A model generated the notes under the pieces. It ran no database searches. It was given only the letters and a program-made list of their open reading frames with translations, and had not been told where the DNA came from. The position numbers and the translations under genes are program-made. Positions 6,096 to 46,082 of a stretch of DNA of 64,000 nt are shown piece by piece (position 1 is the first letter of the stretch; every line of letters begins with the position of its first letter). Origin of the DNA: Nicotiana tabacum (Eukaryota; Streptophyta; Magnoliopsida; Solanales; Solanaceae); assembly GCF_000715075.1 (NCBI RefSeq), contig NC_134101.1, forward strand, positions 192,592,103-192,656,102. The letters run 5' to 3'.

Positions 6096-6232
6096 CCGCG
6101 GGCCGCACCAAATCGACTGCGGTCCGCACCAATTGACTACGGTCCGCACAAGCCAGCGCAGTCCGCGCGACACCTATCGCGACCGCGCCCGTTTTTGTAC
6201 GGTCCGCGCGACGCCTACCGTGGCCGCGCCCC
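6096..6232. repeat. Palindromic-word array (CGGTCCGC type), upstream of TATA
   Basis: Repeated GC-rich words CGGTCCGC, CCGCGGGCCGC, CAGTCCGCGCG and GACCGCGCC are spaced 10-25 bp apart. The words are self-complementary or complementary to one another. The array lies immediately upstream of the LTR TATA box in the LTR's own orientation. Confidence 0.7.
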
Positions 6233-6944
6233 TGCATTCCTCTTGGACCTACTATAACTGCTGCATTTTTTTGTTATATTTTTCAACTCCAAACTTCCCG
6301 TTAGCCATCCGAAATCACCCCAAGGCCCCTGGGACCTCAATCAAAAGCACCAACGCATCCTAAAACATCCTCCAAATCCAATCTTCAAAACACCTCAGAC
6401 AACATCAAAACCATCAAATTACATCGAATTCAAGCCTAAGAACTCCAAGAACTCTTGAATTATGCTTTCGATCAAAAAGTCTATAAAATTTCGTCCGGAT
6501 GACCTAAAATTTTGGACATGCATCCCAAATGTCACAACGAAGCTACTACAACTCTCGAAATTCCATTCCGACCCCTATATCAAAATCTCGCCTATCAACC
6601 GGAAATTGCCAAATATCAATTTCGCCAATTCAAGCCTAAATCTTCTCTACAACTCCAAAACCCATTCCGATCGCGCTCCTAAGTCACAAATCACCTCCTG
6701 AAGCTAACCGAACCATCAAAACTCACATCCGAGCCCTCTAACACATAAGTCAACATCCGGTTGACTTTTTTTTTTCCAACTTAAGACTTCTTAGAAGAGA
6801 CTAAGTGTCTCATTTCTTACCAAAATCACACCAACCACAAACCAATCAACCCGATCACATAAAACACAGATAACGAAGCATAAATAAGCTGGAATGGGGG
6901 AAGATGGAGCGGTAACTCATGAGATGACTGGCCGGATCGTCACG

Positions 6945-8490
6945 TAAAGCCAACGCGAGGTTTAACTAGATAGAGATGTAACAAATAGACACTGTTAGAG
7001 TGAAAACCAATTTTTATTTATATTAATCCTAAGAGGATTAACGAGAGTCAACGACCAAGAGCTTATGATGAGACTTTATTCATGGACAAAGTACCCTTGG
7101 AATCCTTGGCATTTCAGAGTTTACAAGGGTCTGAGGAACCCCGAGCGGTGCTTATGTCGGGGAAGGGCACCTTAACCACAAAGTAGGTCCTACCCCAGTT
7201 ACCCTTAATAACTCACACTCATTCTTCCCCAAATGTTTAGTTACAAATAAGGAAATCAACATAAGAGCAGCAACATGCACAAAGGTTTCAAGTACAGAGG
7301 CTATAGAAAGTACTATCAAAGTGCAATCATTAACCCCAAAGTCATAATCCAAAAATAGAGTTCAATTACTACAGGTACTATCAATGTTCAGTGCTACTAA
7401 GCATTCATTTGTAATATGTATTAGAACATTAAGAAGATTAAACATAGTTGCGGAACACAGAGATTTTTAGAGGAACCAACAGTAGACTATTCCAAGTTTT
7501 AAAATGCTGAGTTAAGTGATCCTTGGAGTAGGGATGACACGTATGCTAACTTCATTGGTTATACTGGTAAGATCAAACTTACAGGAGTCCTTAATTAAGT
7601 TCACAATACATTAACAACTACTTATAGTGTATTTAGAACAATCAGACGTTTACACACATGGTTAAGTCCTCACTCTACTAGGTACATGGACTAATAACCT
7701 TGTTCATGCCTTCTTAAAGAGCAATAACACCAACAGAAGTACACATATAAGAAAGAAGGTTAATCTCAGATTAATCTAGACTCAATAACATGATTCCTAT
7801 CAGGTTCCCAATCAGTGATCCTTATTCACACTAGATCTTTAAAAAGCCAAGATATTCAGTCAAGCATGGTGCATTGTTCATTCAAACAAGGCAGGCAAAC
7901 ATGAGTGAGTCTCATTAGGCCTAAGAGTGACAACAACAGATTTCCATTTCAGATCCTACACTACTAAGTTATTAAGGCTGGTATAGTTTAACTTCTATTC
8001 TATAAGGCAATTTCAAGTGAAGAATATAATAACTTAGGCAAGGGTCTTTCCTGAATGAGAGTAAATAGAAAGTTCATGAGTACAAACATGAAAGGTCAAC
8101 AGAATTCACCCAACCTATACGCAAGGAGGCTTTTACAAGATTTCATGGCTACAGAACTTATCAAAAAAGCAGATAACACAATAGCCATGCTAATGATTTT
8201 TTCATTACATGAGTTCAGGATATAATAACATGCCTATGTGACTTATTAAGAATGTATAGCAGGCATGGTTTTAGTTGCTGATTTCTCAATCAAACAAGTA
8301 CGTTAAGTGTGTAGCATGGACGCTATAATAAAGGTCATTTAGTTGAATCAAAGGTGGTACAACATTATTGATCCAAGAACAGATGTAGCAAATGCAAACT
8401 CTAAGCAGGATGTCAAGAAACAATTTAAGGATACAACTTGAGATAGGCTAGCAAACATGGTAATACAACTTATAAAACATCTAGAGTGTA
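6945..8490. other. Unassigned AT-rich DNA
   Basis: Starts with the right TSD copy TAAAG of the solo LTR. I see no gene, terminal repeat or recognisable transposon domain. It is presumably the continuation of the old element interrupted by the solo LTR at 4173-6944, but I could not prove continuity. Confidence 0.4.
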
Positions 8491-9071
8491 TATCACCTCA
8501 AAGTAGCACAACGATGTGAAATCCGGGGTTTCATACCCTCAGGACAACATTTACAATCATTACTTACCTCCGGTCCAAACTCTAGTCCACGATGCCTTTT
8601 CCTCTCGACTCGACCTCCGAACGCTCCAAATCTAACCAAAATTAGATTCATACCATCAAAATATGCTAAGAAAACAAAGCCCACTCGAAAATAACCAATT
8701 TACATAAATAATCCCAAAATTAGCCAAACGCGACCCCCGGGCCCACGTCTCGGATTATGATAAAAATTACAAAACTAGAATCCTTACACTCTCACGAGTT
8801 CATACATATCAAATACATCAAAATACGACAACAAACGACCCCTCAAATCCTCAAATCAAAGTCTTCAATTTCAAGCCCTAAGTCCCCAATTTTAGGCTTT
8901 AGATTCCACAAATTTCATGTCTAATTAGGTAGAAATTACAATAGAAAAAAATATTGAGTCGAAAAATCTTACCTCTAAGAGTTTCCCTTTGATTCCCTCT
9001 TCAATCCTTCTCAAAAAGCTCCAAAATCGCTCAAAATTGGTGGAAGATAGAACAAAAATCGCAAACATGGC

Positions 9072-9079
9072 TATTTAAA
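9072..9079 (-). promoter_or_regulatory. TATA-like box of LTR fragment
   Basis: Reverse complement reads TTTAAATA, a degenerate TATA box. It sits at the equivalent place, about 29 bp from the palindromic-word array. Confidence 0.4.
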
Positions 9080-9104
9080 CATTCTGCCCAGGCATTAATT
9101 CCTT

Positions 9105-9405
9105 AATCGCGATCGCGAAGTACAAAGACTGACTGAACTCATTTAACCTTATGCGATCGCAATATACTCCACGCGATCGCGAAGCTATACCACACAGACC
9201 CACGCGATTGCGTAGAGCAATCACCTCAGCCCCTCTTCAGATCACTTCCCTCTACGCGAACGTGACTCTGACCACGCGTTCGCGAAGCACTACTTCATAC
9301 ACATACGCGATCGCGACCCAAACTCTGTGATCGTATAGAGCACTCTACCTCTGCCCCCAAATAAGCCTACGCAATCGTGGACCCTTCTAAGCGATCACGA
9401 AGAAC
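9105..9405. repeat. Palindromic-word array (CGCGATCGCG type)
   Basis: At least ten variants of CGCGATCGCG (also TGCGATCGCA, CGCGATTGCG, CGCGAACGTG, CGCGTTCGCG, CGCAATCGTG) recur every 15-40 bp. The array occupies the same site in the LTR as the arrays of the other subfamilies. Confidence 0.75.
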
Positions 9406-10000
9406 AAAATGTCTGCAACAGACCTGAAGGAAAATCTGCAACTTTCTAAACAAGAATTTGATCCGTTTAACCACCTGAAACTCACCTGAGGCCCTCGGGA
9501 CCTCAACCAAACATGCCAACACATCCCATAACATCATTCAAACTTGTTTCAACCTTCAGAACGCTCAAAAACATCAAAACATAGAATCACCCTCGGATTC
9601 AAGCCTAAGAATTCCAAAACTTCCGAATTTCGAATTCGATCAAAAAGTCTATCAAACCATGTCCGAATGACCTGAAATTTTGTACAAACGTTACAAATGA
9701 CACAACGGACCTACTCCACTTTTGGAATTCCATTTCGACCCCGATATCAAAATTTTCATTGCCGGCCGAAAAATGCCAAATTTCCAATTTCACTAATTCA
9801 AGCCTAAATCTACCACGGACCTCCAAAATACATTTCGGATGCGCTCACAAGTCCAAAATAACCTAACGGTGCAAACCAAATCATAAAAATCCAAATCCGA
9901 GATTGAATACTAAAAAGTCAAAACTTGGTCAAACCTTCCAAATTTAAAGCTTCAAACTGAGAATTGTTCTTCCAAATCTATTCTGATTATGACTTGTGAG

Positions 10001-10026
10001 ATTAAGATTATTAACTTAATCTTAAT
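10001..10026. repeat. 26-bp palindrome at the rearrangement junction
   Basis: ATTAAGATTA, a 6-nt loop TTAACT, then TAATCTTAAT: perfect 10-bp arms. The palindrome straddles the point where the reverse LTR fragment meets the truncated T1 5' LTR, whose homology to its other copies begins near 10021. Confidence 0.7.
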
Positions 10027-11334: not shown

Positions 11335-11610
11335 TATGGTGGGATTGGGTTGCACATTGCAATAAAAAGAATAAGTGTAATATATTGAGGAGGAATAAGG
11401 GTGAAATATGATTGTCTGGTGGGATCGGGTTGCGCGCCACAACATGAGGAATAAGGGTGATATAATGAGGAGTAATAAGGGTGGATTGTTATTGTAGGGT
11501 GGGATTGGGTTGCGCACCGCAACATGAATAATAAGGATTGATTGATACAGAGTAATAAGGGTGAATGTTCATATTGTTACTAATTATATGGTGGGATCGG
11601 GATACGTGCT
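11335..11610 (+). repeat. Hairpin minisatellite in T1 5' LTR leader
   Basis: Imperfect tandem copies containing GTTGCGCGCCGCAAC variants followed by GGAATAAGGGTGA. The core GTTGCG-CGC-CGCAAC is self-complementary. The same repeat is at 32010-32285 and 33585-33860 in the related LTRs. Confidence 0.75.
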
Positions 11611-17596: not shown

Positions 17597-18954
17597 TGTG
17601 ATGACCAAAAAGGTCATCTTCTGTTTTAAAACACATTTCCGTGTTCCGAGGCCTTTAAAAACCTCACTTTACCTCTCCTCGATTTGCGTGCGCAATTTGG
17701 ACGTGCTTCCAGAAAGCTTTTATATGAAAATTGTTAAATAGTAATTTTTGGCCTAAATAGTAGATTTTATTTACTTCGGTCAATATTTTAGATAAACAGA
17801 CCCGAACCCGTGTTCTGACGGTTCCGATGGGTCTGTAGTAAAATATGAGTCTTGGATGTATGCCCAAAATCGAATTCTGAGGTCCCTAACCTGAAAAATT
17901 AATTTTTGATGAAAATTGTAAGACTGAAATTATAATGGTTTTAAGAAATTGATTAATACTCGATCTTGTTGGTATCGAGTTTGAATCTTGGTTCCGAAAC
18001 CCGATATAGGTCCATTATGATATTTATGCCTTATCTGTAAAATTTGGTGAGGAACGGAACTGATTTGACGTGGTTCGGACCTTTGGTTGAGAAAATAGAA
18101 GTTTTGAAACTTTCTTGAAAATTTCATGCAATTTGGTGCTAAATTCGTAGTTCAAGGTGTTATTTTGGCGATTTGATCGCACGAGCAAGTTTGTATGATG
18201 TTTTTAGACTTGTGTGCATGTTTGATTTCGATCCCCGAGGGCTCGGGTAAGTTTCAGATAGGCTACAGAGTGACTTGGGCTTAAGAATAATTGTCGGTAT
18301 GCTTCAGGTCTGCAGACTTCGCAATTGCGAGGTCTGGCTCGCAAATGCGAGCCTCGCATTTGCGAAGAATGTTCGCATTTGTGAAGTAGGGGAGGGGAAT
18401 GGGTAGTTCGCATTTGCAAAGAATAGTCCACATTTGTGGAAGTCCAGGTCTTCATTTGGTACTGGGACTTCGCATTTGCGATGGCTGCAGAAATGCGAGG
18501 AGTTTGCATTTGCGATACTTTTCTCGCATTTGCGAAGCTCAGGTCACAAATACGACATCTGCAGCTGACAAGTCTAGGCTTAGACGGGATTTTTCATTCA
18601 TTTTCTCATTTTTCAAAACCTAAACCTCAAGAGGCGATTTTCCAATGACCCTTTCTTCCCCAAATCATAGGTAAATGAATCTTAACTCATTTCTTTCAAT
18701 ATGTTATTCTTTTTTCAAGATTTCATCCTAGAATCTAGGGGTTTTCATGGTGGAATTGGGGATTTTTGGGTAGAAACTTAGGAATTTCGAAATTTGGGAA
18801 TTTAGACCTCAAATTTAGGTCGGATTCCAAAACCAATTATATATCCGGGCTCGGGGGTAGATGGGTAATCGGGTTTTTATCCAAATTTTGGGTTTTGACC
18901 AAGCGTGCTAGGGGTCGATTTTTGACTTTTTTGGGGAAATTATAATTATGCATT
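17597..18954 (+). mobile_element. T1 3' LTR, left part
   Basis: Starts TGTGATGACC directly after the purine-rich ATGTGGAGAT. It breaks at 18954, where a solo LTR is inserted. It resumes at 33003, giving a total of about 2.9 kb. Confidence 0.85.
18305..18560. repeat. Palindromic-word array (TTCGCATTTGCGAA type)
   Basis: About a dozen variants of CGCATTTGCG, with flanks often extending to TTCGCATTTGCGAA, including CGCAATTGCG, CGCAAATGCG and CACATTTGTG. No clear TATA box follows in this subfamily; the next landmark is the GAGGCGATTTTCCAATGACC block. Confidence 0.75.
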
Positions 18955-19669
18955 TGTGACGATCCAAAGGGGCATCTTCTGTTTTAGAACTCGAATCTGT
19001 GTTTCGAGGCCTTAAAAACCTCATTTTATCTCTCCTCGATTTGCATGTGCAGTCTGGACATATTTTTGGAAAGCCTTTATGTGGAAAATTGATGAAATAA
19101 TAATTTTTGGCCTTGTTGACTTCGGTCAACATTTTGGTAAACAGATCCGGACCCGTGTTTTGATAGTTCCGGTGGGTCCGTAGTAAAATATGTGACCTGG
19201 GCGTATGCCCCGAATCGAATTCCGAGGTCCCCAGCCCAGGAAATGAATCTGTGATGAAAATTGTAAAACTGGAATTATAAAGGTTTTAAGAATTTGGTTA
19301 ATAATTGATCTTGTTGATACCGGGTCCGTATTGTGGTTTCAAAGCCAGATACAGGTCTGTTATGATAATTATACCTTATCTGTGAAATTTGGTGAGTGTC
19401 GGGACTGATTTGACGAGATTCAGACCTTTGGTTGATAAAATAGAAGTTTTGAAACCTTCTTGAAAATTTCATGCAATTCGATGCTAAATTCATAGTTTTA
19501 GGTGTTATTTTGGCAATGTGATCGCGCAAGAAAGTTTGTATGATATTTTTAGACTTCTATGCATGTTTCGTTTGGAGTCCCAAGGGATCGGATGAGTTTT
19601 GGATAGGCTACGGGATATTTTAAACTTGAAAATTATGGTGTTTTTGGCTTCAGTTGTCATCTGGTATTT

Positions 19670-19945
19670 CCTTCTTCGCGTTCGTGAGGGAACTCTCGCG
19701 AACGTGAAGAGTAAGATGGTCCGAAGGAGAAATCCTTCTATGCGAATGCGAAGCACTGGTCACGAACGCGGAGCGTTGAGGGCATTGCCCTTCGCGAACG
19801 CGACCATGATATCGCGAATGCAAGGCATGTGACCTGGGGGAGGGGAAAGGTTCTCATCGCGAACGCAACACTAGGCTTGCGAAAGCGGATGGGGAGAGTA
19901 TGCCTCGGCGAATGCGATGGGCATCTTGCAAACGCGAAGAAGACC
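19670..19945. repeat. Palindromic-word array (TCGCGAACGCGA type)
   Basis: Variants of CGCGAACGCG, CGCGTTCG, GCGAATGCGA and GCGAAAGCGG recur through the segment. It holds the same position in the LTR as the array at 18305, but with a different word. Confidence 0.75.
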
Positions 19946-20016
19946 TGTCCAATGATTTTAAAGCAGAATCAAAGTCGGGACCTGTCCAATGATTTTAAAG
20001 CAGAATCAAAGTCGGG
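19943..20016. repeat. Perfect 37-bp tandem duplication
   Basis: The unit ACCTGTCCAATGATTTTAAA... occurs at 19943-19979 and again at 19980-20016 with no mismatch. Being perfect in an otherwise decayed LTR, it is probably recent. Confidence 0.85.
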
Positions 20017-21269
20017 ATTTGTTCAAGTTTTCATATCTTTTTCACTAGAATTCGACCTAGGGCAATTTTGAAGAGGGATTTCAACACCAAATCCTAGGTT
20101 TGTGTTCTTTAAGTCATTTTCTTCAATTTCCATCTACACCCATTAGATTTCTAGTCGTAAATCTTGTTCGTTTATGGTAGAATTAGGGATTTTGAGAAAA
20201 ATTGGGGATTTTGCAAATTTGGGAATTTAGACCTCGATTAGGGGTCGGATTCCAAAACCAATTGCATAGTTGGGCTCGCTGGTGATTGGGTGAATGGGTT
20301 TTGGTCCAAACCTCGAGTTTTGACCAGGCGGGCCCAGGGTCGGTTTTTGACTTTCTGGAAAGAATGCTGGGAAACTTATAATTTTGCATTGGAATTGATT
20401 TCTTTAGTGATAATTGATGTTATTAAGTTAATTATGACTAGATACGAGTGGATCAGAGGTGGAATCTAGAAAAAAAATGGTATTTCAGCTTTGAGTTGGC
20501 CGTTGGATTGAGGTAAGTGTTGTGTCTAACTTTGACTTGAGGGATTAGGGATCCCCGACTTAATTGCTATGTGAAAATCCATGTGTGTGGCGTATATGTC
20601 ACGACCCCGGTTCACCCTCCATGAACCATCGTGACGGCACCTAGTCTTTACGACTAGGTAAGCCTAATTTGCGGAAGAAAAACCAAATTTTTGCGGAAGT
20701 AAAACAATTTAAAATAGAAATAAAGTAGTAATAGTGTTTAAATGTGCCGCTCGGCTCACACCATGTTTAACTTTCCATACCAATACATAAATCCAAGACC
20801 CGGAAACCCACGAATCACAAGCTAAGATCAATACTACACAAATCTAACTCTGGAATGTCTAATAAGAACAAAAAAAATACAGAAGGGCTAAATACTAAAA
20901 GCAGGAATAGAAAGGGACTTCTTGGTCTGCGGACGCGGAAGATGTACCTCGAAGTCTCTAGAGCAGTCGCCTCCTCAAGGATGATAGGCCTGAGTAGCGG
21001 TACCTGGATCTGCACATGAAAAACATGCACAGAAAAGGCATGAGTACACTACAACAGTACTCAGTAAGTGCCAAGCCTAACCTCGGTTAGGTAGTGACGA
21101 GGAAGGTCAGCGCCCTACTGAGATTAAATAAATATAAGGATGACAAGATAAGATAAGCAGTACAATTGAAAATTTACAGTAAGAATCTACACAGGATAAT
21201 AAGAGTACAATAACGGAAACAGAGATGAAGGCAAACCACAAGGAAGTACCACTCACAACAAGGATGATA

Positions 21270-21590
21270 ACCGGGGATCTCTTGGTATCCCGAGGATCTC
21301 TTGGTATCCTCAATATATGCTAGGATCTCTTGGTATCCCGAGGATCTCTTGGTATCTTCAATATATGCTAGGGATCTCTTAGTATCCCAAGGATCTCTTG
21401 GTATCCTTAATATATGATAGGGATCTCTCGGTATCCTGAGGATCTCTTGGCATCCTCAATATATGCTAGGGATCTCTTGGTATCTCGAGGATCTCCTGGT
21501 ATCCTCAATATATGCTAGGGATCTCTCGGTATCCCGAGGATCTCTTGGTATCCTCAATATATGTGCCAGGGATCTCTTGGTATCCCGACC
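21270..21590. repeat. GGATCTCTTGGTATCC minisatellite (T2 3' LTR)
   Basis: About 13 copies of GGATCTCTTGGTATCC occur, mostly as dimers separated by CAATATATGCTAG, giving a higher-order period near 48 bp. The unit starts GGAT and ends ATCC. Confidence 0.85.
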
Positions 21591-22503
21591 TCAGTTCAGA
21601 TCATAAATACGTACAGAGGATCTCTCGGGACGCCGTTCCGTAGTCCCAAAGTAAAAACACACACCAACAACACAAGAATACCCAATTAAGCTAAATTTTG
21701 TACCAAGTAAACAATTAATTCTAGACTAACATGCTTCACATAATGCAATTAAGGCAGTTAAAGCAAATAGGCAATTAAGTCAACTAAACATACTTTTCTA
21801 AACTAGCAACATGCTAAATTCACAAGTAGAATAAAACAGGAAAAAGAACTCAATTGAAATACTTAAGGAAAAACTAGATTTTCAACAATTAGATCAAGTA
21901 CGCGCTTGTCACCTCATGTACAAGGCATTTCAATTATCAAATATATCATATCCTAAGGGGAAGATCCCCCACACAAGGTTAGACAAGCCACTTACCTCGA
22001 ACCGGCTTAAAAATCAACCCGTAACCACGTTCTTGCCACGAGTACTCGACTCCAAATGACTGAAATCTATTCAATTTAATTGCATAACGTAAATAACACT
22101 TCAAGTAACTGATTCTACAATTAAATTCTAAGATAATAAGCGAAATTATGTAAAATGACCAAAACGCCCCTCAGGTCCACGTCTCGGAATCGGGTAAAAT
22201 TTATATTTTCAAAAACCTCGCACTCTCACGGGTTCAGTCATATAAAGAGTACGAAAATTGGACTTCAATATATCCCTCAAATAATCACTCAAAGGTCTCT
22301 AATTATACAAGCCCTAACCCCCAAATTACCACTGATTTTCCTTAATTTTTCATGCTTAAATTGATAAAATCACTTCTATAACGAGTTTAGGGACCAAAGA
22401 CCTTACCCTAATGAACCCCTCTAAAAATCTCTCTTGAAAAGTGCTCCCCAAGCTTCTTCCGTTTTGAAAAGATGAAAAATGGCTAAATTTCGCGAAGGCA
22501 AGA

Positions 22504-22511
22504 ATTTATAT
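22504..22511 (-). promoter_or_regulatory. TATA box of T2 3' LTR
   Basis: Reverse complement reads ATATAAAT, about 17 bp from the palindromic-word array. Confidence 0.5.
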
Positions 22512-22524
22512 GTTCTGCCCAGCG

Positions 22525-22745
22525 ATTTCTGCATTTGCGGCCTTGGGACCGCATATGCGGTCCCGCTTCTGTGGAGCCTAGGTCGCATCTGCAACTTTCA
22601 CTTAAAGACCTATTTCCGCATCTGCGGTTTTGCTTCTGCGGTAAATCTCCTAGATCTGCAGAACCTACTGACCTCCCTAAATTTCGCTTCTACGGTGACG
22701 CACCTGCGGAACCCAAACCGCAGGTGCGGTTATGTCAGAACCAGC
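22525..22745. repeat. Palindromic-word array (CGCATCTGCGG type), T2 3' LTR
   Basis: Variants of CCGCATCTGCGG, GCATTTGCGG, CCGCATATGCGG, GCTTCTGCGG and CCGCAGGTGCGG. Strong self-complementarity of neighbouring words. Confidence 0.75.
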
Positions 22746-23409
22746 AGCTGAAGCTGCAACTTAAATTCCAACATCTTTCCGTCAACCATCCGAAATCATC
22801 CCGAGGCCTACGGGACCTTAACTAAAGGCACCAACAAGTCACAAATCGCTACCCAAACTTGTACCAATCCTTAGAACACCTAAAACAACATCGAAACCTC
22901 GAATTAACCGTGGATTCAAGCCTAAGAACTCAAAAATTCTCAAAATACGCTTTCGATCAAAACGTCTATCAAACCTCGTTCGAATGACCTAAAATTTTGC
23001 ACACACGTCACATTCAACACTATGGAACTACTCCAACTTCCGGAATTCCATTCCGACCCTCGGATCAAAATCTCACTATCGGATCGGAACTTCAAAAATT
23101 CAACTTTCGGCATTTCAAGCCTAATTTAGCTACGGACCTCCAAAACACAATTTGAACACGCCCCTAAGCCCAAAATTACCCAACGGAGCTAACAAAACAA
23201 TCAGATTTCCATTTTGAGGCCGTTTTCACACTATTTCGACTATGGTCAACTTTCCAACACTTAAGCTCTCATTAAGGGACTAAGTGTCCTAAAACTCTCC
23301 GAAACTTGAAACCGAACATCCGGACAAATCAAAAATAGCATAAATAAACTTGGGGAAAGCAGTTAATAGGGGATCGAGGCATAAATTCTTAAGACGACCG
23401 GCCGGGTTG

Positions 23410-26920: not shown

Positions 26921-26959
26921 CCACCACCTCTAGCTGGCTGAGTAGGTGGGATAGAAACT

Positions 26960-28280: not shown

Positions 28281-28469
28281 TATCTGTGAGAGAATAGAAG
28301 ATAGAACTTTACAATTATGATGTCAAAATATCGCACGACAAGTAATCAAATAAAGTGGAAATTTTCCTAACAGTTACATAGCCTCTCGTAGATAAGTACA
28401 AACATCTCCACACTGATCAACGAGACTCTAATAAACCGGATTGTGATCCATGACTCCTATGAACCTAGA

Positions 28470-28481
28470 GCTCTGATACCA
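28470..28481 (-). promoter_or_regulatory. Primer-binding site of T2 (initiator tRNA-Met type)
   Basis: Reverse complement is TGGTATCAGAGC, an exact match to the usual tRNA-iMet primer-site core, 3 nt inside the 5' LTR edge. Confidence 0.8.
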
Positions 28482-29159
28482 GCTTTTCACGACCCCAGTT
28501 TGCCCTTCGTGAATCATCGTGATGGAACCTAGTCTCTACGACTAGGTAAGCCTAATTTACAGAAGAAAAACCAAAATTTTGCAGAAGTAAAACAATTTAA
28601 ACCAGAAATAAAGTAGTAACAATGTTTAAATGTGTCGCTCGGCTCACACCATGTTTAAATATTAATACCAATACATAAATCCAAGATCCAAAAACCCACG
28701 AATCACAAGCTAAGATCAATACTACATAGCTCTAACTCCGGAATGTCTAATAAGAACAAAAAAATACAGAAGGGCTAAATACTAAAAGTAGGAATAGAAA
28801 GGGACTTCTCGGTCTAAGGACGCAACAGATGTACCTCGAAGTCTCTAGAGCAGTCTCCTCCTCAAGGATGATAGGCCTGAGTAGAGGTACCTGGATCTGC
28901 ACATGAAAAACATGCGTAAAAGAGGCATGAGTACACCATAGCGGTACTCAGTAAGTGCCAAGCCTAACCTCGATTGGGTAGTGACGAGGAAGGTCAGGGC
29001 CCTACTGAGATTAAATAAATATAAAGATGACAGGATAAGATAAGCAGTACAATTGAAAATCTACAGTAAGAATCTACACAGGATAATAAGAGTACAATAA
29101 CGGAAACAAAGATGAAGGCAAACCACAAAGAAGTACCACTCATAACAAGGATGATAACC

Positions 29160-29475
29160 GGGGATCTCTTGGTATCCTCAATATATGCTAGGGATCTCTT
29201 GGTATCCCAAGAATCTCTTGGTATGCTCAATATATACTAGGGATCTCTTGGTATCCCGAGGATCTCTCGGTATCCTTAATATATGATAGGGATCTCTCGG
29301 TATCCCTAATATATGATAGGGATATCTCGGTATCCCGAGGATCTTTTGGTATCCTCAATATATTCTAGGGATCTCTTGGTATCCCGAGGATCACCTGGTA
29401 TCCTCAATATATGCTAGGGATCTCTTGGTATCCTCAAAATACGTGCCAGGGATGTTTTGGTATCCCGCACCTCAG
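29160..29475. repeat. GGATCTCTTGGTATCC minisatellite (T2 5' LTR)
   Basis: About 13 copies of the 16-bp unit seen at 21270-21590. Their order and variants differ between the two LTRs, so the arrays have evolved independently. Confidence 0.8.
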
Positions 29476-30252
29476 TTCAGATTATAAATACGTACAGGGG
29501 ATCTCCCGGGATGCCGTTCCGTAGTCCCAAAGAAAAAAAAAAGCAACAACACAAGAATACCCAATTAAGCTAAATTTCGTACCAAGTAAACAGTTAATTC
29601 TAGCCTAACATGCTTCACGTAATGCAATTAAGGCAGTTTAAGCAAATAGGCAATAAAGTCAACTAAATGTGCTTTTCTAAACTAGCAATTGGCTAAATTC
29701 ACAAGTAAAATAAAACAGGAAAAAGAACTCAATTGAAATACTTAAGGAAAAACTGGATTTTCAATAATTAGCTCAAGTACTCGCTCGTTACCTCACATAC
29801 AAGGCATTTCAATTATCAAATATATCATATCCTAAGGGGAAGGTCCCCCACACAAGGTTAGACAAACCACTTACCTTTAATCGGCTGAAAAATCAACCCG
29901 TAACCATGCTCTTGCCACGAGTACTCGACTCCAAATGGCCAAAATCTATTCAATTTAATTACATAATGTAAATAACACTTCAAGTAACTGATTCTACAAT
30001 TAAATTCTAAGCTAATGCGCAAAATTATGTAAAATGACCAAAACGCCCCTCGGGCCCACATCTCGGTTCATCACACAAAAGTCTCCAATTATACAAGTCC
30101 TAACCCCCCAATTACCACTGATTTTCCTTAATTTTTCATGCATAAATTGATAAAATCACTCCAATAACGAGTTTAGGGACTCAAGAACTTACCCCAATGA
30201 ACTCCTCTGAAATTCCCTCTTAAAAAGTGCTCCCCAAGCTTCTTTTCATTTT

Positions 30253-30980
30253 GAAAAGATGAATAATGGCTAAATTTCACGAAGGCAAGAATTTATATGT
30301 TCTACCCAGCGATTTCCGCATTTGCGGCCCTGAGACCGCATCTGCAGTCCAGCTTCTGCGGAGCCTAGGATGCATCTGTGACTTTCACTTAAAGACCCAT
30401 TTCCGCATCTGCGGTTACCCTTGCGCAGGTGCGGTACCGCTTCTGCGGTGGACTACCCGCATCTGCGGTTCCTGAAGAGATGGCCAAATTCAGCTTCTGC
30501 GATCTCCAACTCGCAGATGCGGTTCCATTTCTGCGGTAAATCTCCCGCATCTGCGGAACCTGCTGACCTCCCTAAATTTTGCTTTTGCGGCCTATTAGCC
30601 ACTTCTGCGGCGCCGCACCTGCGGAACCAAAACCGCAGGTGTGATTATGACAGAACCAGCAACTGAAAAAGATGAAAAATGACTAATTTTCGCTAAGGCA
30701 AGAATTTATATGTTCTACCCAACGATTTTTGCATTTGAGGCCTTGGGACCGCATCTTCGGAGCCTAGGTCGCATCTGCGACTTTCACTTAAAGGCCTATT
30801 TTCGCATCTGCGGTTACCCTTCCGCAGGTGCGGTACCGTTTCTGCGGTGAACTACCCGCATCTGCGGTGAACTACCCGCATCTGCGATTCCTGAAGAGAT
30901 GGTTGAATTCCACTTCTGCGGCCACTTAGCCGCTTCTGCGGCGGCGCACCTGCAGACAGAACCAGTAGCTGAAGCTGCAA
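30253..30980. repeat. Tandem duplication of promoter plus palindromic array
   Basis: Two copies at a 413-bp offset: the TATA-containing AAGAATTTATATGTTCTACCC occurs at about 30288 and about 30701, and each copy is followed by a CGCATCTGCGG-type array (30310-30650 and 30735-30965) ending near CAGAACCAG. The second copy is partly deleted. The 3' LTR has one copy. Confidence 0.8.
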
Positions 30981-31640
30981 CTTTAATTCCAAAATCTTTC
31001 AATCAACCATCCGAAATCATCCTGATGCCTCTAGAACCTCAACCAAAAGCACCAACAAGTCACAAACCACTATCCAAACTTGTATCAATCCTTAAAACAC
31101 CTAAAGCAACATCAAAACCTCGAATTAACTATGGATTCAAGCCTAAGAACTTCAAAATTCTCAAAATACGCTTTCGATTAAAATGTCTATCAAACCTCGT
31201 TCGAATGACATGAAATTTTGCACACACATCACATTCAACACTACAGAGCTACTCCAGCTTCCAGAATTCCATTTCGAATCTCAGATGAAAATCTCACTAT
31301 CGGACCGGAAACTTCAAAAATTCAACTTTCGGCATTTCAAGCCTAAATTAGCTACAAACCTCCAAAACACAATCCTAATATGCCTCTACGCCCGAAATTA
31401 CCTATTTGAGCTCACAGAACCATCAGATTTCCATTCCGAGGCCTTCTTCACACTGTTCCGACTACGACCAACTTTCTAACACTTAACCTCTCATTTAGGG
31501 ACTAAGTGTCCCAAAACTCTCCGAAACTCAAAGCCGATCATCCCGGCAAATCAAAATAGCATAAATAAGCTTGGGAAAAGTAGTTAATAGGGGATCGAAG
31601 CATTAATTCTTAAGACGACAGGCCAGGTCGTCACAGTATA

Positions 31641-32997: not shown

Positions 32998-33002
32998 ACA
33001 TT

Positions 33003-35054: not shown

Positions 35055-35754
35055 TGTGACGACCCGACCAGTCGTCTCATGAGCTACCGCTCAGTTTCCT
35101 CCATTTCAGCTTCTTTACTCTTCGTTATCCGTGTTTTATGTGATTGAGTTGATTAGTTCGAGTTCGGAGAGGATTTGGTAAGAAATGAGACACTTAGTCT
35201 CTTTTAAGAAGGCTTAAGTTGGAAAAAGTCAACCGGGTGTTGACTTATGTGTTAGAAGGCTCAGAAGTGAGTTCCGATGGTTCGGTTAGCTTCGGGAGGT
35301 GATTTGTGACCTAGGAGCGCAATCAGAATGAGTTTGGAGTTGTAGAGAAGATTTAAACTTGAATTGGCGAAATTGATATTTCGGCAAATTCCGGTTGATA
35401 GGCGAGATTTTGATATTGGGGTCGGAATAGAATTTCGAGAGTTGCAGTAGCTTCATTTTGACATTTGGGATGTGTGTGCAAAATTTCAGGCCATTCGGAC
35501 GAGATTTGATAGACCTTTTGATCGAAAGCATAATTTAAGAGTTCTTGGAGTTCTTAGGCTTGAATCCTATGTTAAATTGGTGATTTGATGTTGTTGTGAG
35601 CGTTCCGAAGTTTTGAGCAAGTTTGAACGATGTCATGGGATGTGTTGGTGCAATTGGTTCGAAGTTCTGGGAGTTCCGGGTAGGTTCCAGGATGTTTTAG
35701 TGCAACAATCATAGCTGTAGCAGGTCTACAGGGGTTGCAGGCCCCGAAACTCAC

Positions 35755-35925
35755 TCACACGGTCCGCACAAAAATAAGTGCACCTGCGTTGAGTGCTGTG
35801 CGGACCGCAAAAAAGCAGGCGCGGCCGCGGTAGGTGTCGTGCAGACCGCACAAAAGTGGGCGCGACCGCGGTAGGCGTTGCGCGGACCGCACAAAAGTGG
35901 GCGCGGCTGCGGTAGCTGAAACCTG
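35755..35925. repeat. Palindromic-word array (GCGGACCGCA type), T3 5' LTR
   Basis: Words GCGGACCGCA, GCGGTCCGCA-like and GCGGCCGCGG alternate with a CAAAA(G/A) spacer, at about 35-55 bp intervals, ending about 10-20 bp before the TATA box. Confidence 0.75.
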
Positions 35926-35934
35926 AGGGGTACC

Positions 35935-35942
35935 TATAAATA
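35935..35942 (+). promoter_or_regulatory. TATA box of T3 5' LTR
   Basis: TATAAATA, preceded by GGGGTACC and followed by CGAGGTCTTGGG. Identical context at 44173-44180 in the 3' LTR. Confidence 0.7.
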
Positions 35943-36770
35943 CGAGGTCTTGGGTTTTATTTAATATTTTAACCTAGAGAGCTCGGATTTTGGCAATTTT
36001 TCAAAGGTTTTTCAAGAAATTCATCGGGGTAAGTGAGTTTAACTCAAATTTGGCTAGAATACATGAATCTATCACTGAATTCATCATTTAATTCGTGATT
36101 TGAGATGGAATTTAGGAAGAAAATTGTGAAACCTTTCAAAAATGTATAATGATGATTTGAAGGACCAAATGGTATCGGAATTGGATAATTTTGGTATGAT
36201 TAGACTCGTGAGGGTAAGAGGATTCTGAAAATGTAATTTTTACCTGATTTCGAGATGTGGGCCCGGGGCTCGGGTTTTGCTAATTTCGAGATTTTTGATA
36301 TTTTTTGAATGTTTTCGCTTGGGATTTGTTCTTTTAGCATATTGTGGCGTATTCGTTTTGATTTTGGATAGATTCGACATGCGTGGAGGCCAATTCGACG
36401 GGCAAAGGCATTGCGAGCTAGAGAATTAGCCAGTTCGAGGTGAGTAATGGTTGTAAATGATGTCCTGAGGGTTTGAAAACCCGGATTGCACAACGTAGTG
36501 CTATATTGAGGCAAGATATGCACTGGATGATGAGCGTGGGGTCTTTCACTACTGGGGATTTTGACTTGGTCCATTCCGATTGATAATTTTACCGAATATT
36601 TGACTGAAATTCATTTGTTATCATCATGATTTGGGCTTCGTGCCATATTTGGGCTTCGTTCCAACTATTTGAACCCTTCGGGGATTTTTATCACTGTTTC
36701 CTCACTGCTTGACTTATTATTTGAACTCAATCCTGTTGATATCTAATGTTTTACAAACTCAACCACTTTT

Positions 36771-37308
36771 ACTCAGATTTGAAACTTAAATGATATTTCT
36801 ACATCATGTTTTGGGCTGAGAACTACTGTTTTACTAATGCCCAAGGGACTTGTGAGTATTTTGGACTGAGTGAGGCCGAGGGCCATATGTGAGGATATGC
36901 TGGGTGATATGAGGCCGAGGGCCTGAGATACTTTATATGCCATGAGGTGGCTTGAGTGATGTGAGGCTGAGTGCCGAGTGATGATGCCACGAGGTGGCTT
37001 GATATAGCGCTTGGGCCGTAAGGGGCCCGTCCGAAGTCTACTCAGATTTGAAACTTAAATGATATTTCTACATCATGTTTTGGGCTGAGAACTACTGTTT
37101 TACTAATGCCCAAGGGACTTGTGATGATTTTGGACTGAGTGATGCCGAGGGCCATATGTGAGGATATGCTGAGTGATATGAGGCTGAGGGCCTGAGATAC
37201 TTTATATGCCATGAGGTGGCTTGAGTGATGTGAGGCTGAGTGCCGAGTGATGATGTCACGAGGTGGCTTGATATAGCGCTTGGGCCGTAAGGGGCCCCTC
37301 CGAAGTCT
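36771..37308. repeat. 269-bp tandem duplication in T3 5' LTR only
   Basis: Copies at 36771-37039 and 37040-37308, both starting ACTCAGATTTGAAACTTAAA. The 3' LTR has only one copy (from about 45008), so the duplication arose after insertion or was lost from one LTR. Confidence 0.88.
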
Positions 37309-37515
37309 GCACACCCACAGTGAGAGCGGGTACCCATTGTTTTGAGTGATTGATGCTACGCCCGAGGGGCTGATATGAGTGATTGTGAGGTAGCCCGAGG
37401 GGCTGATACTATTTCGAGAGTGAGCCCGAGGGGCTGATACTGTACTAAGAGTGAGCCCGAGGGGCTGATACTATGCTGAGCGATTGATACTGTGCCCGAG
37501 GGGCGGATTTCTACT
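36885..37515 (+). repeat. Hairpin minisatellite with GAG loop, T3 5' LTR leader
   Basis: Repeated short hairpins with a common GAG loop and different stems: GGCC-GAG-GGCC, GCCAC-GAG-GTGGC and AGCCC-GAG-GGGCT, joined by TGATACTA/TGATATGAG spacers. At least four AGCCCGAGGGGCT-type units lie at 37360-37500. Confidence 0.75.
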
Positions 37516-38110
37516 TGTTATTTACCTGTTAAATTACCTGTTTTACTTGTTTTAAAAGGGAATATCATTTGATTCTTCACTGATTTACTGCTTTAAGTGA
37601 TTTTACTACTTAATATGGAATTGCTTTGTGCCTTTACGTGTTTTCATACTTTCAGCCATTATTTATAATTGTTACTTACCGAGTCGTTGTACTCACATTA
37701 CTCCCTGCACCGTGTGTGCAGATTCAGGTATAGCAGAGTCCGCACCTGAGCGATGATTCCGTCCAGGCTAGGCAGTGATTTGGAGTTACAAGGTAGCTGT
37801 TGACGTCCACAGCCCCTTGTCCCTCTTACCCTCTATCATTTATGTTTTCTTCAGACTGTTGTATCGGATTCCGTACTTTGTAGACCTATAGCAGATTCTA
37901 TAGTAGCTCATGACTTGTGACACCCTAATTTGGGCTATGTCGGAATGGTTCCTGCTGTTGTTAACGTTAAAATTCTGCAATTTATGAGTGTTATATTATA
38001 TGTTATTACTGTTTATGATGATTAACTGTTTAAAAGAGGTATTCCGTTTTGGCCTTGTCTTCACGAGAGGCGCCATCACGACTGGGTTCGGGGATTGGGT
38101 CGTGACAAGT

Positions 38111-39770: not shown

Positions 39771-39779
39771 GGCGGTCAG

Positions 39780-41690: not shown

Positions 41691-43295
41691 ATTCCAGTTG
41701 GGGAGAGACCCCTTGCAGTTGATGTTCAGGCCTTGGCCAATTGGTTCGTGAGATTGGATATTTCGGAGCCCAGTCAGGTGTTGGCATGTGTAGTTTCTCG
41801 GTCTTCCTTATATGATCGTATTAGAGAGCGCCAATATGATGATCCACATTTGCTTGTCCTTAAGGACAGAGTCCAGCATGATGATGCCAGAGATGTGACC
41901 GTCAGTGATGATGGTGTGTTGAGGATGCAGGGCTGGATTTGTGTGCCCAATGTGGATGGGCTTAGAGAGTTGATTCTGGAGGAGGCTCATAGCTCGCGGT
42001 ATTCCATTCATCCGGGTGCCGCGAAGATGTATCAGGATTTGAGGCAGCACTATTGGTGGAGAAGAATGAAGAAAGATATCGTGGGAATTGTAGCTCGGTG
42101 TCTCAATTGTCAGCAGGTGAAATATGAGCATCAGAGACCGGGTGGCTTGCTTCAGCAGATGGTTATTCCCGAGTGGAAGTGGGAGAGGGTCACCATGGAT
42201 TTTGTGAGTGGTATTCCTCGTACTTTGAAGAAGTTCGATGCTATTTGGGTGATTGTGGATAGGCTGACCAAGTCTGCGCACTTCATCCCTGTGTGTACTA
42301 CCTATTCTTTAGAGCGGTTGACAGGGATTTATATCTGAAAGATTGTTCGGTTGCATGGTGTTCCGATCTCCATCATCTCAGATAGAGGTACTCAGTTTAC
42401 TTTGTAATTTTGGAGAATGGTGCAGAGAGAGTTGGGTACTCAGGTAGAGTTGAGCACAGCGTTTCATCCTCAGACGGACGGACAGTCCGAGCGTACTCTT
42501 CAGATATTAGAGGACATGTTGCATGCTTGTGTTATTGACTTTGGAGGTTCATGGGATAGGTTTCTACCACTTGCAGAGTTTGCTTACAACAACAACTACC
42601 AGTCGAGTATTCATATGTCTCCATAGGAGACTTTGTACGGGAGGCAATGTAGATCTCCGGTTGGTTGGTTCGAGCCCACCGAGGCTAGACTATTGGGGAC
42701 AGATTTGGTTCAGGATGCCTTAGAGAAGGTGAAGGTGATTCAGGAGAGGCTTCGTACAGCGCAGTCGCGTCAGAAGAGTTATGCAGACTGGAAGGTTTGA
42801 GATGTGTCCTACATGGTCGGTGAGAAGGTCATGCTGAAGGTTTCGCCCATGAAAGGTGTTATGAGGTTTGGGAAGAAAGGCAAGTTGAGTCCTCAGTTCA
42901 TTGGGCCTTTTGAGGTGCTTCGAAGGATTGGGGAGGTGGCTTATGAGCTTGCTTTTCCACCTAGCCTGTTGAGTGTGCATCCGGTATTTCATTTTTCTAT
43001 GCTTCGGAAGTATATTGGGGATCCGTCTCATGTTTTGGACTTCAGCACGGTTCAGTTGGATGATGATTTGACCTTTGATGTGGAGCCAGTAGCTATTTTG
43101 GGTCGGCAGGTTCAGAAGTTGAGGTCAAGGTATATAACTTTAGTGAAAGTGCAGTGGAGAGGTCGGCCCATGGAGGAGGCTACCTGGGAGACCGAGCGGG
43201 AGATACGGAGCAGATATCCTCATCTGTTTGAGGCATCATGTATGTTTCTTGACTCGTTCGAGGACGAACGTTTGTTTAAGTTGGGGAGGATGTGA
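41690..43295 (+). pseudogene. T3 integrase and chromodomain
   Basis: HHCC zinc-binding domain (H near 41987 to CLNCQQVK at about 42100); integrase core Asp in MDFVSG (~42196), Asp in SDRGTQF (~42380) and Glu in the helix SERTLQILEDML (~42490). Barrel region GKLSPQFIGPFEVLRRIGEV, then chromodomain VKVQWRGRPMEEATWETERE. Stops at 42336, 42404, 42623 and 42799 break it. The terminal stop is supplied by the first bases of the 3' LTR (LTR starts 43291, frame ends 43295). Confidence 0.9.
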
Positions 43296-46082
43296 TGACC
43301 CGGCCAGTCGTTTCATGAGCTACCGCTCCGTTTCCCCCATTTCAGCTTCTTTACGCTTCGTTATCCATGTTTTATGTGATCGAGTTGATTAGTTCGAGTT
43401 CGGAGAGGATTTTGTAAGAAATGAGACACTTAGTCTCTTTTAAGAAGGTTTAAGTTGAAAAAAGTCAATCGGGTGTTGACTTATGTGTTAGAAGGATCGG
43501 AAGTGAGTTTCGATGGTTTGGTTAGCTTCGGGAGGTGATTTGTGACCTAGGAGCGCGATCGGAATGAGTTTTGGAGTTGTAGAGAAGATTTAGGCTTGAA
43601 TTGGCGAAATTGATATTTCGGCAAATTCCAGTTGATAGGCAAGATTTTGATATTGGGGTCAGAATAGAATTCCGAGAGTTGCAGTAGGTTCTTTTTGTCT
43701 TTGGGATGTGTGTGTAAAATTTTAGGCCATTCGGACGAGATTTGATAGACCTTTTGATCGAAAGCATAATTTAAGAGTTTTTGGAGTTCTTAGGCTTGCA
43801 TCCTATGTTAAATTGGTGATTTGATGTTGTTGTGAGCGTTCCGAAATTTTAAGCAAGTTTAAACGATGTCATGGGATGTGTTGGTGCAATAGGTTCGAAG
43901 TTCTGGGAGTTCGGGGTAGGTTCCGGGACGTTTTAGTGCAAAAATCATACCTGTAGCAGGTCTACAGGGGTTGCAGGCCCCGAAACTCACTCACGCGGTC
44001 CGCACAAAAATAAGTGCGCCCGCGTTGAGTGCTGTGCGGACTGCAAAAAAGCGGGCGCGGCCGCGGTAGGTGTCACACGGACCGCACAAAAGCGGGCGCG
44101 TACTGCACAAAAGCTGGCGCGACACTGCACAAAAGTGGGCGCGGCCGCGGTAGCTGAAACCTGAGGGGTACCTATAAATACGAGGTCTTGGGTTTTATTT
44201 AATATTTTAACCTAGAGAGCTCGGATTTTGGCGATTGTTTGAAGGTTTTTCAAGAAATTCATCGGGGTAAGTGATTTTAACTCAGATTTGGCTAGAATAC
44301 ATGAATCTATTACTGAATTCATCATTTAATTCGTGATTTGAGATGGAATTTGGGAAGAAAATTGTGAAACCTTTCAAAAATGTAAAATGATGATTTGAAG
44401 GACCAAATGGTATCCGAATTGGATAATTTTGGTATGGTTAGACTCGTGAGGGTATGAGGATTCTGAAAATGTAAATTTTACCCGATTCCGAGACGTGGGC
44501 CCAGGGCTCAGGTTTTGCTAATTTCGAGATTTTTGATATTTTTCAAATGTTTGCGCTTGGGCTTTGTTCCTTTAGCATATTGTGACGTATTCGTTCCGAT
44601 TTTGGATAGATTTGACGTGCGTGGAGGCCAATTTGAGGGGCAAAGGCGTCGCGAGCTAGAGAATTAGCCAGCTCGAGGTGAGTAATGGTTGTAAATGATG
44701 TCCTAAGGGTTTGAAAACCCGGATTGCACAACGTAGTGCTATATTGAGGCAAGATACGCGCTGGATGATGAGCGTGGGGTCTTTTACTACTTGGGATTTT
44801 GACTTGGTCCATCCCGATCGATGATTTTACCGAATATTTGACTGAAATTCATTTGTTATCATCATGATTTGGGCTGATTGCCATATTTGGGCTTCGTGCC
44901 AATATTTGAACCCTTCGGGGATTTTTATAACTGTTTTCTTACTGCTTGACTTATTATTTTAACTCAGCCTGTTGATATCTACTGTTTTACAAACTCAGCC
45001 ACTTTTACTCAGATTTGAAACTTAAATGATATTTCTACATCATGTTTTAGGCTGAGAACTACTGTTTTACTAATGCCCAAGGGGCTTGTGATGATTTTGG
45101 ACTGAGTGAGGCCGAGGGCCATATGTGAGGATATGCTGAGTGATATGAGGCCGAGGGCCTGAGATACATTATATGCCACGAGGTGGCTTGAGTGATGTGA
45201 GGATATGCTGAGTGATGATGCCACGAGGTGGCTTGATATAACGCTTAGGCCGTAAGGGGCCCCTCCGGAGTCTGCACACCCACAGTGAGCGCGGGTACCC
45301 ATTGTTCTGAGTGATTGATGCTATTCCCGAGGGGCTGATATGAGTGATTGTGAGGTAGCCCGAGGGGCTGATACTATTTCGAGAGTGAGCCCGAGGGGTT
45401 GATACTGTACTAAGAGTGAGCCCGAGGGGCTGATACTATGCTGAGCGATTGAAACTGTGCCTGAGGGTCGGATTTCTACTTGTTATTTACCAGTTAAATT
45501 ACCTGTTTTACTTGTTTTAAAAGGGAATATCATTTGATTCCTCACTGATTTACTGCTTTAAGTGATTTTACTGCTTAATATGGAATTACTTTATGTCTTT
45601 ACGTGTTTTCACACTTTCAGCCATTATTTATAATTGTTACTCACTCAGTCGGAGTACTCACATTACTCCCTGCACCGTGTGTGTAGATTCAGGTATAGCA
45701 GAGTCCGCACCTGAGCGCTGATTAAGTCTAGGCTAGGCAGTAATTTGGAGTTACGAGGTAGCTGTTGGACGTCCGCAACCCCTTGTCCCTCTTACCCTCT
45801 ATCATTTATGTTTTCTTCAGACTGTTGTATCGGATTCCGTATTTTGTAGACCTATAGCAGATTCTGTAGTAGCTCATGACTTGTGACACCCCGGTTTGGG
45901 CTGTGTCGGGATGGTTCCTGCTGTTGTTAACGTTAAAATTCTGCAATTTATGAGTGTTATATTATATGTTATTACTATTTATGATGATTAACTGTTTAAA
46001 AGAGGTATTCCATTTTGGTCTGGCTGGCCTTGTCTTCACAAGAGGCGCCATCACGACCGGGTTCAGGGATTGGGTCGTGACA
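43291..46082 (+). mobile_element. T3 3' LTR
   Basis: 2792 bp, starts TGTGATGACCCGG after GGGGAGGA and ends GGGTCGTGACA. TATAAATA at 44173-44180; palindromic-word array at 43990-44160; GAG-loop hairpin array at 45105-45475 with a single copy of the segment duplicated in the 5' LTR. Confidence 0.93.
43990..44160. repeat. Palindromic-word array, T3 3' LTR
   Basis: Same words as 35755-35925 (GCGGACCGCA, GCGGCCGCGG), but the repeat order differs in the middle (GTACTGCACAAAAGC and ACACTGCACAAAAG near 44100-44130), so the array has changed since the two LTRs were identical. Confidence 0.7.

Follow-up and report, generated by a model that had tools for sequence, protein, structure and literature searches.

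Arrays of CGC-N4-GCG words ahead of the TATA box in Tekay-type long terminal repeats of Nicotiana tabacum

Introduction

The long terminal repeats (LTRs) of Tekay-type chromoviruses carry arrays of short, CpG-rich words upstream of the TATA box. These arrays were studied in a 64,000-nucleotide stretch of Nicotiana tabacum (contig NC_134101.1, positions 192,592,103 to 192,656,102, called the window) and in an unselected sample comprising 30 loci of 10 kb at round-number genome positions (300 kb). Outside one word type, known here as the A type, the words are built on a single frame, CGC-N4-GCG, and follow one another at preferred distances, most often 20 bp. Similarity between the words of an array stops close to the word edge. 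In addition, sister LTRs can differ in word type, and in the two pairs studied the entire block containing the array is unaligned between aligned flanks. We think it probable that the arrays belong to exchangeable promoter cassettes carrying sites for a putative dimeric DNA-binding factor.

A preliminary description of the window had proposed that the same LTR site holds a different word in every Tekay LTR subfamily. The arrays are real and general. A freely changing word is not supported, as the words outside the A type share a constant frame, and it is the centre and the flanking letters that vary.

Results

A shared frame in the words

The frame was counted in 20 non-A arrays (5 from the window and 15 from the sample), the five A-type arrays having been excluded after their words were seen. 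CGC-N4-GCG occurs 113 times in this set, as opposed to a mean of 5.5 in 100 dinucleotide shuffles. Gaps of 0–3 and 5–11 bp between the same two trinucleotides are found 0–4 times each, which is below chance, and a gap of 12 bp is found 19 times (5.3 expected), probably as an echo of adjacent words. When the A-type arrays are included, all 25 arrays hold 119 copies of the frame (7.6 expected). The A-type arrays are led by GCG-N2-CGC (13 vs 2.3 expected) and GCG-N3-CGC (9 vs 2.0), and also contain CGC-N12-GCG 12 times (2.2 expected). The words of the preliminary description are thus variants of CGC-N4-GCG with the centres GATC, GAAC, ATTT, AATT, ATCT/AGAT, AGGT and AGAA, together with the A type.

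The same frame emerges from the 300 kb without selection of arrays. Here, 64 trinucleotide dyads were compared over gaps of 0–12, and CGC-N4-GCG has the highest ratio of best to median gap (104 sites, median over gaps 9, ratio 10.4), with sites spread across 19 of the 30 loci. The runner-up, GCG-N2-CGC (72, median 15), is contained in GAAC-type words. Of the 141 CGC-N4-GCG sites in window and sample, 119 fall inside the 25 arrays, which together span 7.1 kb, and inspecting the places of the remaining ones led to six further arrays (L004, L009, L012, L014, L017 and L019). Peaks of CGC-N13-GCG and GCG-N22-CGC in the sample come mostly from two loci, L007 and L023. The former holds a 41-bp satellite with regular CGC/GCG spacing from position 1874 onward; the signal in L023 is weaker.

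Word spacing and word-limited similarity

Spacing was measured in 24 non-A arrays, which supply 241 words with at most one mismatch and 217 gaps between neighbours. Neighbouring words start 20 bp apart in 87 of these gaps and 19 or 21 bp apart in 11, and the other favoured distances are 14 bp (25 gaps) and 34 bp (14 gaps). Arrays of the AGRT type mostly alternate 20 bp with 14 or 34 bp, and those of the GAAC type 20 bp with 44, 32 or 52 bp. Across the whole genome (3,996,098,646 bases) the exact double word CGC-N4-GCG-N10-CGC-N4-GCG occurs 154,243 times, as compared to 194 times for its backwards reading; a whole-genome search for an exact doubled word string gave 0 matches.

Identity was then taken over 1282 word pairs within arrays. 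It is 0.80–0.90 at the six fixed letters, which are the letters used to pick the words, and 0.88, 0.55, 0.54 and 0.63 at the four centre letters. One base outside the word it is 0.57 and 0.52 on the two sides, and it is 0.24–0.35 at 2–9 bases outside, before recovering to about 0.5 at either edge of the partner word 20 bp away. The B2 array, which supplies 25 of the 241 words and contains a true internal duplication, raises spacer identity if anything. The centre letters are specific to each array, with a mean of 0.748 per array vs 0.484 when words are permuted among arrays (0 of 500 permutations as high). Between families, positions 3 and 6 are complementary in 179 of 241 words (0.46 if independent) and positions −1 and 10 in 134 of 241 (0.39 if independent), and such an excess of inner or outer pairing is slight or absent inside single families. 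One array, L019c, was entered with the wrong orientation in the analyses from word identity to spacing, and its spacers match those of L002a inverted (z 7.8); since the frame is palindromic, this mainly touches the orientation of the centres.

Arrays in promoters chosen by their flanks

Promoters in the sample were picked by their LTR flanks and not by their words, which gave 20 rows representing 18 distinct regions (L013b and L022b are doubled). Arrays are present in 15 of the 18 regions with both LTR flanks and absent from three (L011 twice, and L029), so the claim that every Tekay LTR subfamily carries one was too broad. Among the 15, L009 (4 one-mismatch words) and L019b (3) are weak, and L002b shows nothing but the A type; one-mismatch words have a background frequency of 0.28 per 300 bp. 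The 300-kb sample contains 23 arrays, six of which were first spotted through their words.

The window arrays and their promoters

At all eight places named in the preliminary description, short dyads form arrays rich in GC and CpG, and all lie inside LTRs (Table 1). They represent six independent LTRs and not eight, because elements A and B each contribute two of the arrays, one from either LTR. GC content is 0.48–0.68 and the observed/expected ratio of CpG is 0.94–1.61. A CpG island is commonly defined by a length of 200 bp, a GC content of 0.5 and an observed/expected ratio of 0.6. Four of the arrays as delimited reach these values (9100, 19675, 22525 and 30310); H has a GC content of 0.48 and the three A-type arrays are shorter than 200 bp.

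The array was said to end about 10–30 bp from the TATA box, and this is what was found: the last word and the TATA box are 19–28 bp apart in six arrays. A TATA or TATA-like box stands beside six of the eight arrays, H having none and Hp only TTTAAA. The palindromic nature of the words is more uneven. Perfect dyads with arms of at least 5 exceed dinucleotide shuffles in the arrays at 9105, 18305, 19670 and 30310 (0–6 of 300 shuffles as high), do so weakly at 22525 (22 of 300), and do not in the A-type arrays at 6096, 35755 and 43990 (106–217 of 300). Some of the words quoted for these arrays are also rare as exact strings: CGCGAACGCG occurs once within 19670–19945, CGCATCTGCGG once within 22525–22745, and GCGGACCGCA twice within 35755–35925 and 0 times in 43990–44160.

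Downstream of the words, a TGGGYA box is present within 35 bp of the last word in 14 of 31 arrays. The distance is 7–8 bp in nine of the 14, all nine being of the AGRT type. Eleven arrays have both TGGGYA and a TATA-like box, and in seven of them the latter is 11 bp from the TGGGYA start (7–13 bp in the remainder). Both sets count B1 and B2 of one element separately.

Divergence and decay

Faster divergence of the word than of its flanks, as had been proposed, holds for the LTR pair of element A and fails for that of element B. The element A LTRs differ at 0.112 per site in the array and at 0.057 and 0.060 in the flanks, and CpG transitions account for 14 of the 19 mismatches in the array. For element B the values are 0.100 in the array vs 0.131 and 0.086, with an approximately threefold difference in array length. 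H and Hp differ by 0.258 in the array (flanks 0.178 and 0.178), and L015a and L015b by 0.208 (flanks 0.188 and 0.197). Gap columns, counted for these four pairs only, number 434 in the array vs 2 and 94 in the flanks for B1/B2, 119 vs 42 and 88 for H/Hp, 4 vs 2 and 0 for element A (A5/A3), and 22 vs 65 and 19 for L015a/L015b.

C>T and G>A make up 103 of the 116 changes found among the six fixed letters. That intact words persist despite their CpG content suggests selection in active lineages.

Change of word type between sister LTRs

A tree was built from the U3 flanks of 21 of the 31 arrays, the others having no usable upstream flank or not being given. Four word types require 8 changes on this tree, where the minimum is 3 and shuffled labels average 11.4 (3 of 200 as low). 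Two sister pairs that differ in word type are well supported, namely H/Hp (98/96) and L021/L026a (99/98). The flanks of L021 and L026a are identical at 533 of 598 and 365 of 412 positions, and the two align over 1–614 (88.5%) and 1001–1554 (83.3%) with no BLAST match between these segments at E up to 1. The non-aligning block, about 390 bp of L021, contains the array and the TATA box, and its identity of 0.718 is no higher than that of shuffles (0.745, s.d. 0.036). H and Hp align over 1–669 and 1147–1357, and the approximately 480 bp elsewhere give weak matches, none better than E 0.02. As the array block is unaligned between aligned flanks in both pairs, the word changed together with the whole block. 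Three of five pairs with the same word (B1/L027, L002a/L013a and L015a/L015b) align straight through.

The earlier idea of a promoter module whose word is replaced and homogenised is therefore retained in part: the place in the LTR is fixed, the type changes repeatedly, and homogeneity is confined to the word. Replacement in place, word by word, is not what the two sister pairs show, where 0.4–0.5 kb around the array is unaligned between conserved flanks. Nor did spacer alignment with the words masked show slot-by-slot replacement. Here, the best same-type similarities have z of 33, 15 and 11, the best cross-type ones 5.7 and 5.5, and H/Hp 2.6. L026a and L026b (1650–2020 and 3130–3540) have 10 of 11 word positions in common over 324 bp while the centre mostly goes from TT to AA; this match is only suggestive, since 13 of 4000 gap permutations are as high and the pair is the best of 231. 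Their position pattern is nearly mirror-symmetric. Inversion of the array was considered as the cause and is not supported, as the mirrored positions agree (11 of 11), yet the inverted spacers are unmatched (z −0.8).

Elements and LTRs of the window

Self-BLAST and LTR ends delimit elements A, B and C, one nested solo LTR and two left-hand LTR fragments (Table 1). The LTRs end in TG..CA (TGTGACGACC..GGTCGTGACA) with 5-bp target-site duplications (CTTAA, GTATA), the left end of B2 reading TT... The 5' LTR of element C ends near 12331, and the solo LTR Hp has the target-site duplication GCATT/ACATT with one mismatch. Positions 17597–34579 form a nest of three layers, in which the LTR of element C is interrupted by a solo LTR of a related family, itself interrupted by the entire element B.

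Assignment to the chromoviruses (Ty3/gypsy) is supported, with Tekay/Del as the probable group. An integrase SH3-like domain (PF24626) and a chromodomain (PF00385) are found in open reading frames 42801–43295 (element A) and 17071–17586 (element C), where the element C chromodomain scores 22.7 bits, below the cut-off of 25.1. These domains indicate a chromovirus, and the Tekay label rests on the abundance of that group in tobacco. Among the 120 matches listed for the chromodomain open reading frame, the best ones with a name are from Nicotiana sylvestris and N. tomentosiformis. According to PMC10817978, Tekay makes up 14.0% of N. tabacum, every other chromovirus group at most 0.3%, and retrotransposons 1,170,972,839 bp or 29.3% of the genome.

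Table 1. LTRs, word arrays and promoter boxes of the window (window coordinates).
Feature	Position	Strand	Details
Element A 5' LTR, Tekay-type chromovirus	35055..38107	+	target-site duplication CTTAA; self-BLAST, LTR ends
A-type array, element A 5' LTR	35755..35925	+	GCG-N2/3-CGC words, e.g. GCGGACCGC, GCGGCCGC; partly 41-bp tandem unit
TATA box, element A 5' LTR	35935..35940	+	
Element A 3' LTR	43291..46082	+	pieces 93–94% identical to 5' LTR
A-type array, element A 3' LTR	43990..44160	+	
TATA box, element A 3' LTR	44173..44178	+	
Element B LTR, copy B1	20597..23414	-	target-site duplication GTATA
B-type array, B1	22525..22745	-	centres AGAT, AGGT, AGAA, ACCT etc.; 9 words with at most 1 mismatch
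TGGGCA box, B1	22516..22521	-	8 bp past last word; 11 bp start-to-start before TATA
TATA box, B1	22505..22510	-	
Element B second LTR, copy B2	28485..31635	-	self-BLAST, LTR ends
B-type array, B2	30310..30965	-	about 3x B1 length; internal duplication, 30254–30469 like 30667–30868
TGGGTA box, B2	30303..30308	-	
TATA box, B2	30292..30297	-	
Element C 3' LTR head (H)	17597..18954	+	tail at 32998–34579; self-BLAST, LTR ends
T-type array, H	18310..18560	+	CGC-ATTT/AATT-GCG; 8 words with at most 1 mismatch
Solo LTR head (Hp), nested in element C LTR	18955..20596	+	resumes 31636–32997 beyond element B
G-type array, Hp	19675..19945	+	CGC-GAAC-GCG; 10 non-overlapping words with at most 1 mismatch, one exact
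LTR fragment F6	4561..6949	-	pieces 79–85% identical to element A LTRs; self-BLAST
A-type array, F6	6090..6236	-	GCGGTCCGC, GCGACCGC
TATA box, F6	6068..6073	-	
LTR fragment F9	8478..9901	-	self-BLAST
G-type array, F9	9100..9405	-	CGC-GATC-GCG, also GTTC/GAAC; 7 non-overlapping words with at most 1 mismatch
TGGGCA box, F9	9085..9090	-	11 bp start-to-start before TATA-like box
TATA-like TTTAAATA, F9	9072..9079	-	

Other repeats are present as well. A 49-bp tandem repeat (GATCTCTTGGTATCCCGAG..) lies in the downstream half of both element B LTRs (21274–21588 and 29161–29441). An 80-bp tandem repeat occupies matching spots of two element C LTR tails (11338–11565 and 33571–33809), and is a second LTR repeat block besides the promoter array. 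Outside the LTR copies studied, an unbroken frame of 617 residues with reverse transcriptase and RNase H domains spans 59005–60858, and about 8 copies of a 62-bp tandem repeat (63250–63728) lie near the right end of the window.

Discussion

A proposed cassette with sites for a dimeric factor

The proposal that we favour is that the array forms the upstream half of a cassette of about 0.4–0.5 kb in the U3 region of Tekay-type LTRs, consisting of the array, a TGGGYA box in many families, and the TATA box. Each word would be a double-stranded site for a dimeric, sequence-specific factor or a set of paralogous factors, with two CGC half-sites in mirror orientation across a fixed gap of 4 bp, and successive dimers would be placed 20 (or 14, or 34) bp apart. 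A row of dimers on double-stranded DNA would need a fixed 4-bp gap, paired half-site letters, fixed spacing and free spacers, and this is the pattern seen. The fixed distance from word to core promoter in the AGRT type is counted as fitting such a row. The letters separating the half-sites and those next to them vary from family to family, and the factor that suits best may vary accordingly. A lineage would change its word mainly by acquiring a whole cassette from another lineage, and not by mutation of one word after another; recombination, or template switching between co-packaged RNAs, could be the route. The frame, the spacing, the word-limited similarity, the recurrent changes of type on the flank tree, the unaligned block and the CpG decay are observed; binding of a protein, activation of transcription, the mechanism and donors of the exchange, and a host origin of the factor are inferred.

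Several results weigh against this proposal. The five A-type arrays fit the frame poorly (6 observed vs 2.1 expected). Asymmetric centres are biased in orientation, with 605 pairs in the same and 212 in the opposite orientation, which a symmetric dimer does not require. The alignment break is not strictly tied to a change of word, since the same-word pair L027/L003 does not align over the cassette and another, A5/F6, breaks at 605–744, just ahead of and into the array. A donor search with five LTRs against each of two cassettes gave identities of 0.72–0.77, no closer than shuffles. On a tree of the core promoter (24 rows) the word types still need 7 changes, which means that array and core do not always move together and that the units of exchange are not uniform. 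Lastly, 15 of 18 regions is a small sample, in which two of the three array-less promoters share one locus.

The best-surviving rival, which we consider unlikely, places the arrays on the side of silencing. They would be CpG-dense "moving targets" of host methylation and small RNAs, varying to escape, or would bind an anti-silencing factor in the manner of VANC. A "moving target" is the published view of the Del 5' CpG island (PMC4029996), small RNAs are in excess on Sirevirus palindromes (PMC10760457, PMC5311732), and VANC motif arrays differ between related elements (PMC5735166, PMC10398659). The prevalence of C>T and G>A among the fixed-letter changes is expected if the words are methylated, and the length difference between the element B arrays also fits. 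CpG density alone, in contrast, would not explain why the gap is exactly 4 or why words are spaced by 20 bp, and a Pfam scan of ten open reading frames found retrotransposon domains in nine and no match in one, with no search aimed at anti-silencing genes. A silencing or anti-silencing role could coexist with binding by a dimeric factor.

That the words are a functionless mutational product, multiplied through slippage, gene conversion or unequal crossing-over, is quite improbable. Their orientation is uniform within arrays, and duplication does contribute in some: according to Tandem Repeats Finder, four window arrays out of eight contain tandem units (6099–6149; 30424–30589 and 30841–30886; 35798–35915; 44084–44143), and B2 has its internal duplication. 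The slippage origin raised in the preliminary description is disfavoured because the spacers are unrelated, being near background identity up to the word edge, while the words hold quantised spacings of 20 and 14 bp; moreover, L021, with an array of nine words, gave no hit in Tandem Repeats Finder. Least probable of all is a role in RNA or single-strand structure, with the words selected because they form hairpins in the U3 portion of the element RNA. Folding energy against 30 dinucleotide shuffles each does have z < −2 in 26 of 31 arrays for the sense strand and in 27 for the opposite one. Dyad arrays of any sort fold well, however, and the mirror pairing reaches into the would-be 4-nt loop (positions 3 and 6). 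Of the doubly decayed words, 8 of 20 are symmetric where the table margins predict about 7, so that the decay is not compensatory, and a fixed 20-bp spacing is not something that a hairpin requires.

The dimer-site cassette could be part of something larger, which we offer as a speculative extension, doubtful as it stands. Very many Tekay promoters (crudely 300,000 in 4.0 Gb) would share the frame and the 20/14-bp rule as a genome-scale promoter code. Its dialects (GAAC, GATC, ATTT/AATT, AGRT and GCGGACCGC) would move as cassettes, each read by a different paralogue of one host DNA-binding family that diversifies against the elements or serves them.

Relation to known systems

Two published features come nearest among those found, namely the repeated motifs in Sirevirus LTRs and the 5' CpG island in those of Del. 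Sirevirus LTRs (Ty1/copia) contain many copies of palindromic motifs with a CGG...CCG core and family-specific letters (PMC2829016). These lie upstream of the TATA box, form CpG islands and, in a comparison with classic Ty1/copia elements, are described as specific to Sireviruses; the core gap is 4–6 in the 12 listed words having it, as counted by eye in Table 3 of that paper (PMC2829016). The palindrome regions are variable, fast-evolving and attract small RNAs (PMC10760457, PMC5311732). Likeness to the tobacco arrays thus extends to palindromic words, a constant CpG trinucleotide core, family-specific letters and the position upstream of TATA. No fixed spacing from word to word is reported in the sections of PMC2829016 consulted. 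The tobacco arrays, on the other hand, are in Ty3/gypsy chromodomain elements, and their core is CGC-N4-GCG and not CGG-CCG, for which the best gap ratio in the 300 kb is 1.8 vs 10.4.

Tnt1 of the Solanaceae differs in being a Ty1/copia element with few copies of its U3 boxes. It resembles the present case in that the LTR domain of cis-acting motifs is the variable part, differing between subgroups (PMC2829016). The Del (Tekay) LTR has a "plastic" 5' CpG island in monocots, stated to be absent in five eudicot species, none of them Solanaceae (PMC4029996). The moving-target idea proposed there is a likeness; the differences are that no word, frame or spacing is described in the sections consulted, and "palindrom" has 0 occurrences in the text (PMC4029996). 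The target motifs of VANC in VANDAL transposons are likewise arrays of short motifs in non-coding parts, with a type that differs between related copies; unlike the case here, the transposon encodes its own binding protein, and the motif is YAGTATTAC/T, often within recognisable tandem repeats (PMC5735166, PMC10398659). A literature search, which left most subscription journals outside, found no description of such arrays in gypsy LTRs among the papers listed, and of the titles listed for papers containing exact word strings none concerns LTRs. The tobacco arrays are of the same kind as the Sirevirus and Del features, found in a eudicot Ty3/gypsy Tekay group; their core is a different one, and their frame and spacing have been measured.

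Significance

The "plastic", CpG-rich block of a Tekay LTR can consist of dimer-like sites on a ruler and not of loose CpG-rich DNA. Arrays of this kind now include a case from a eudicot, a group in which five species had yielded none in the 2014 Del LTR survey, and one from a retrotransposon superfamily other than that of the Sireviruses. A search for the factor can use the precise frame and spacing as its probe, and sister LTRs with different cassettes serve as natural experiments in promoter change within a transposon family. Should a family of host factors stand behind the arrays, they would be a plant case of a race between transposons and their regulators.

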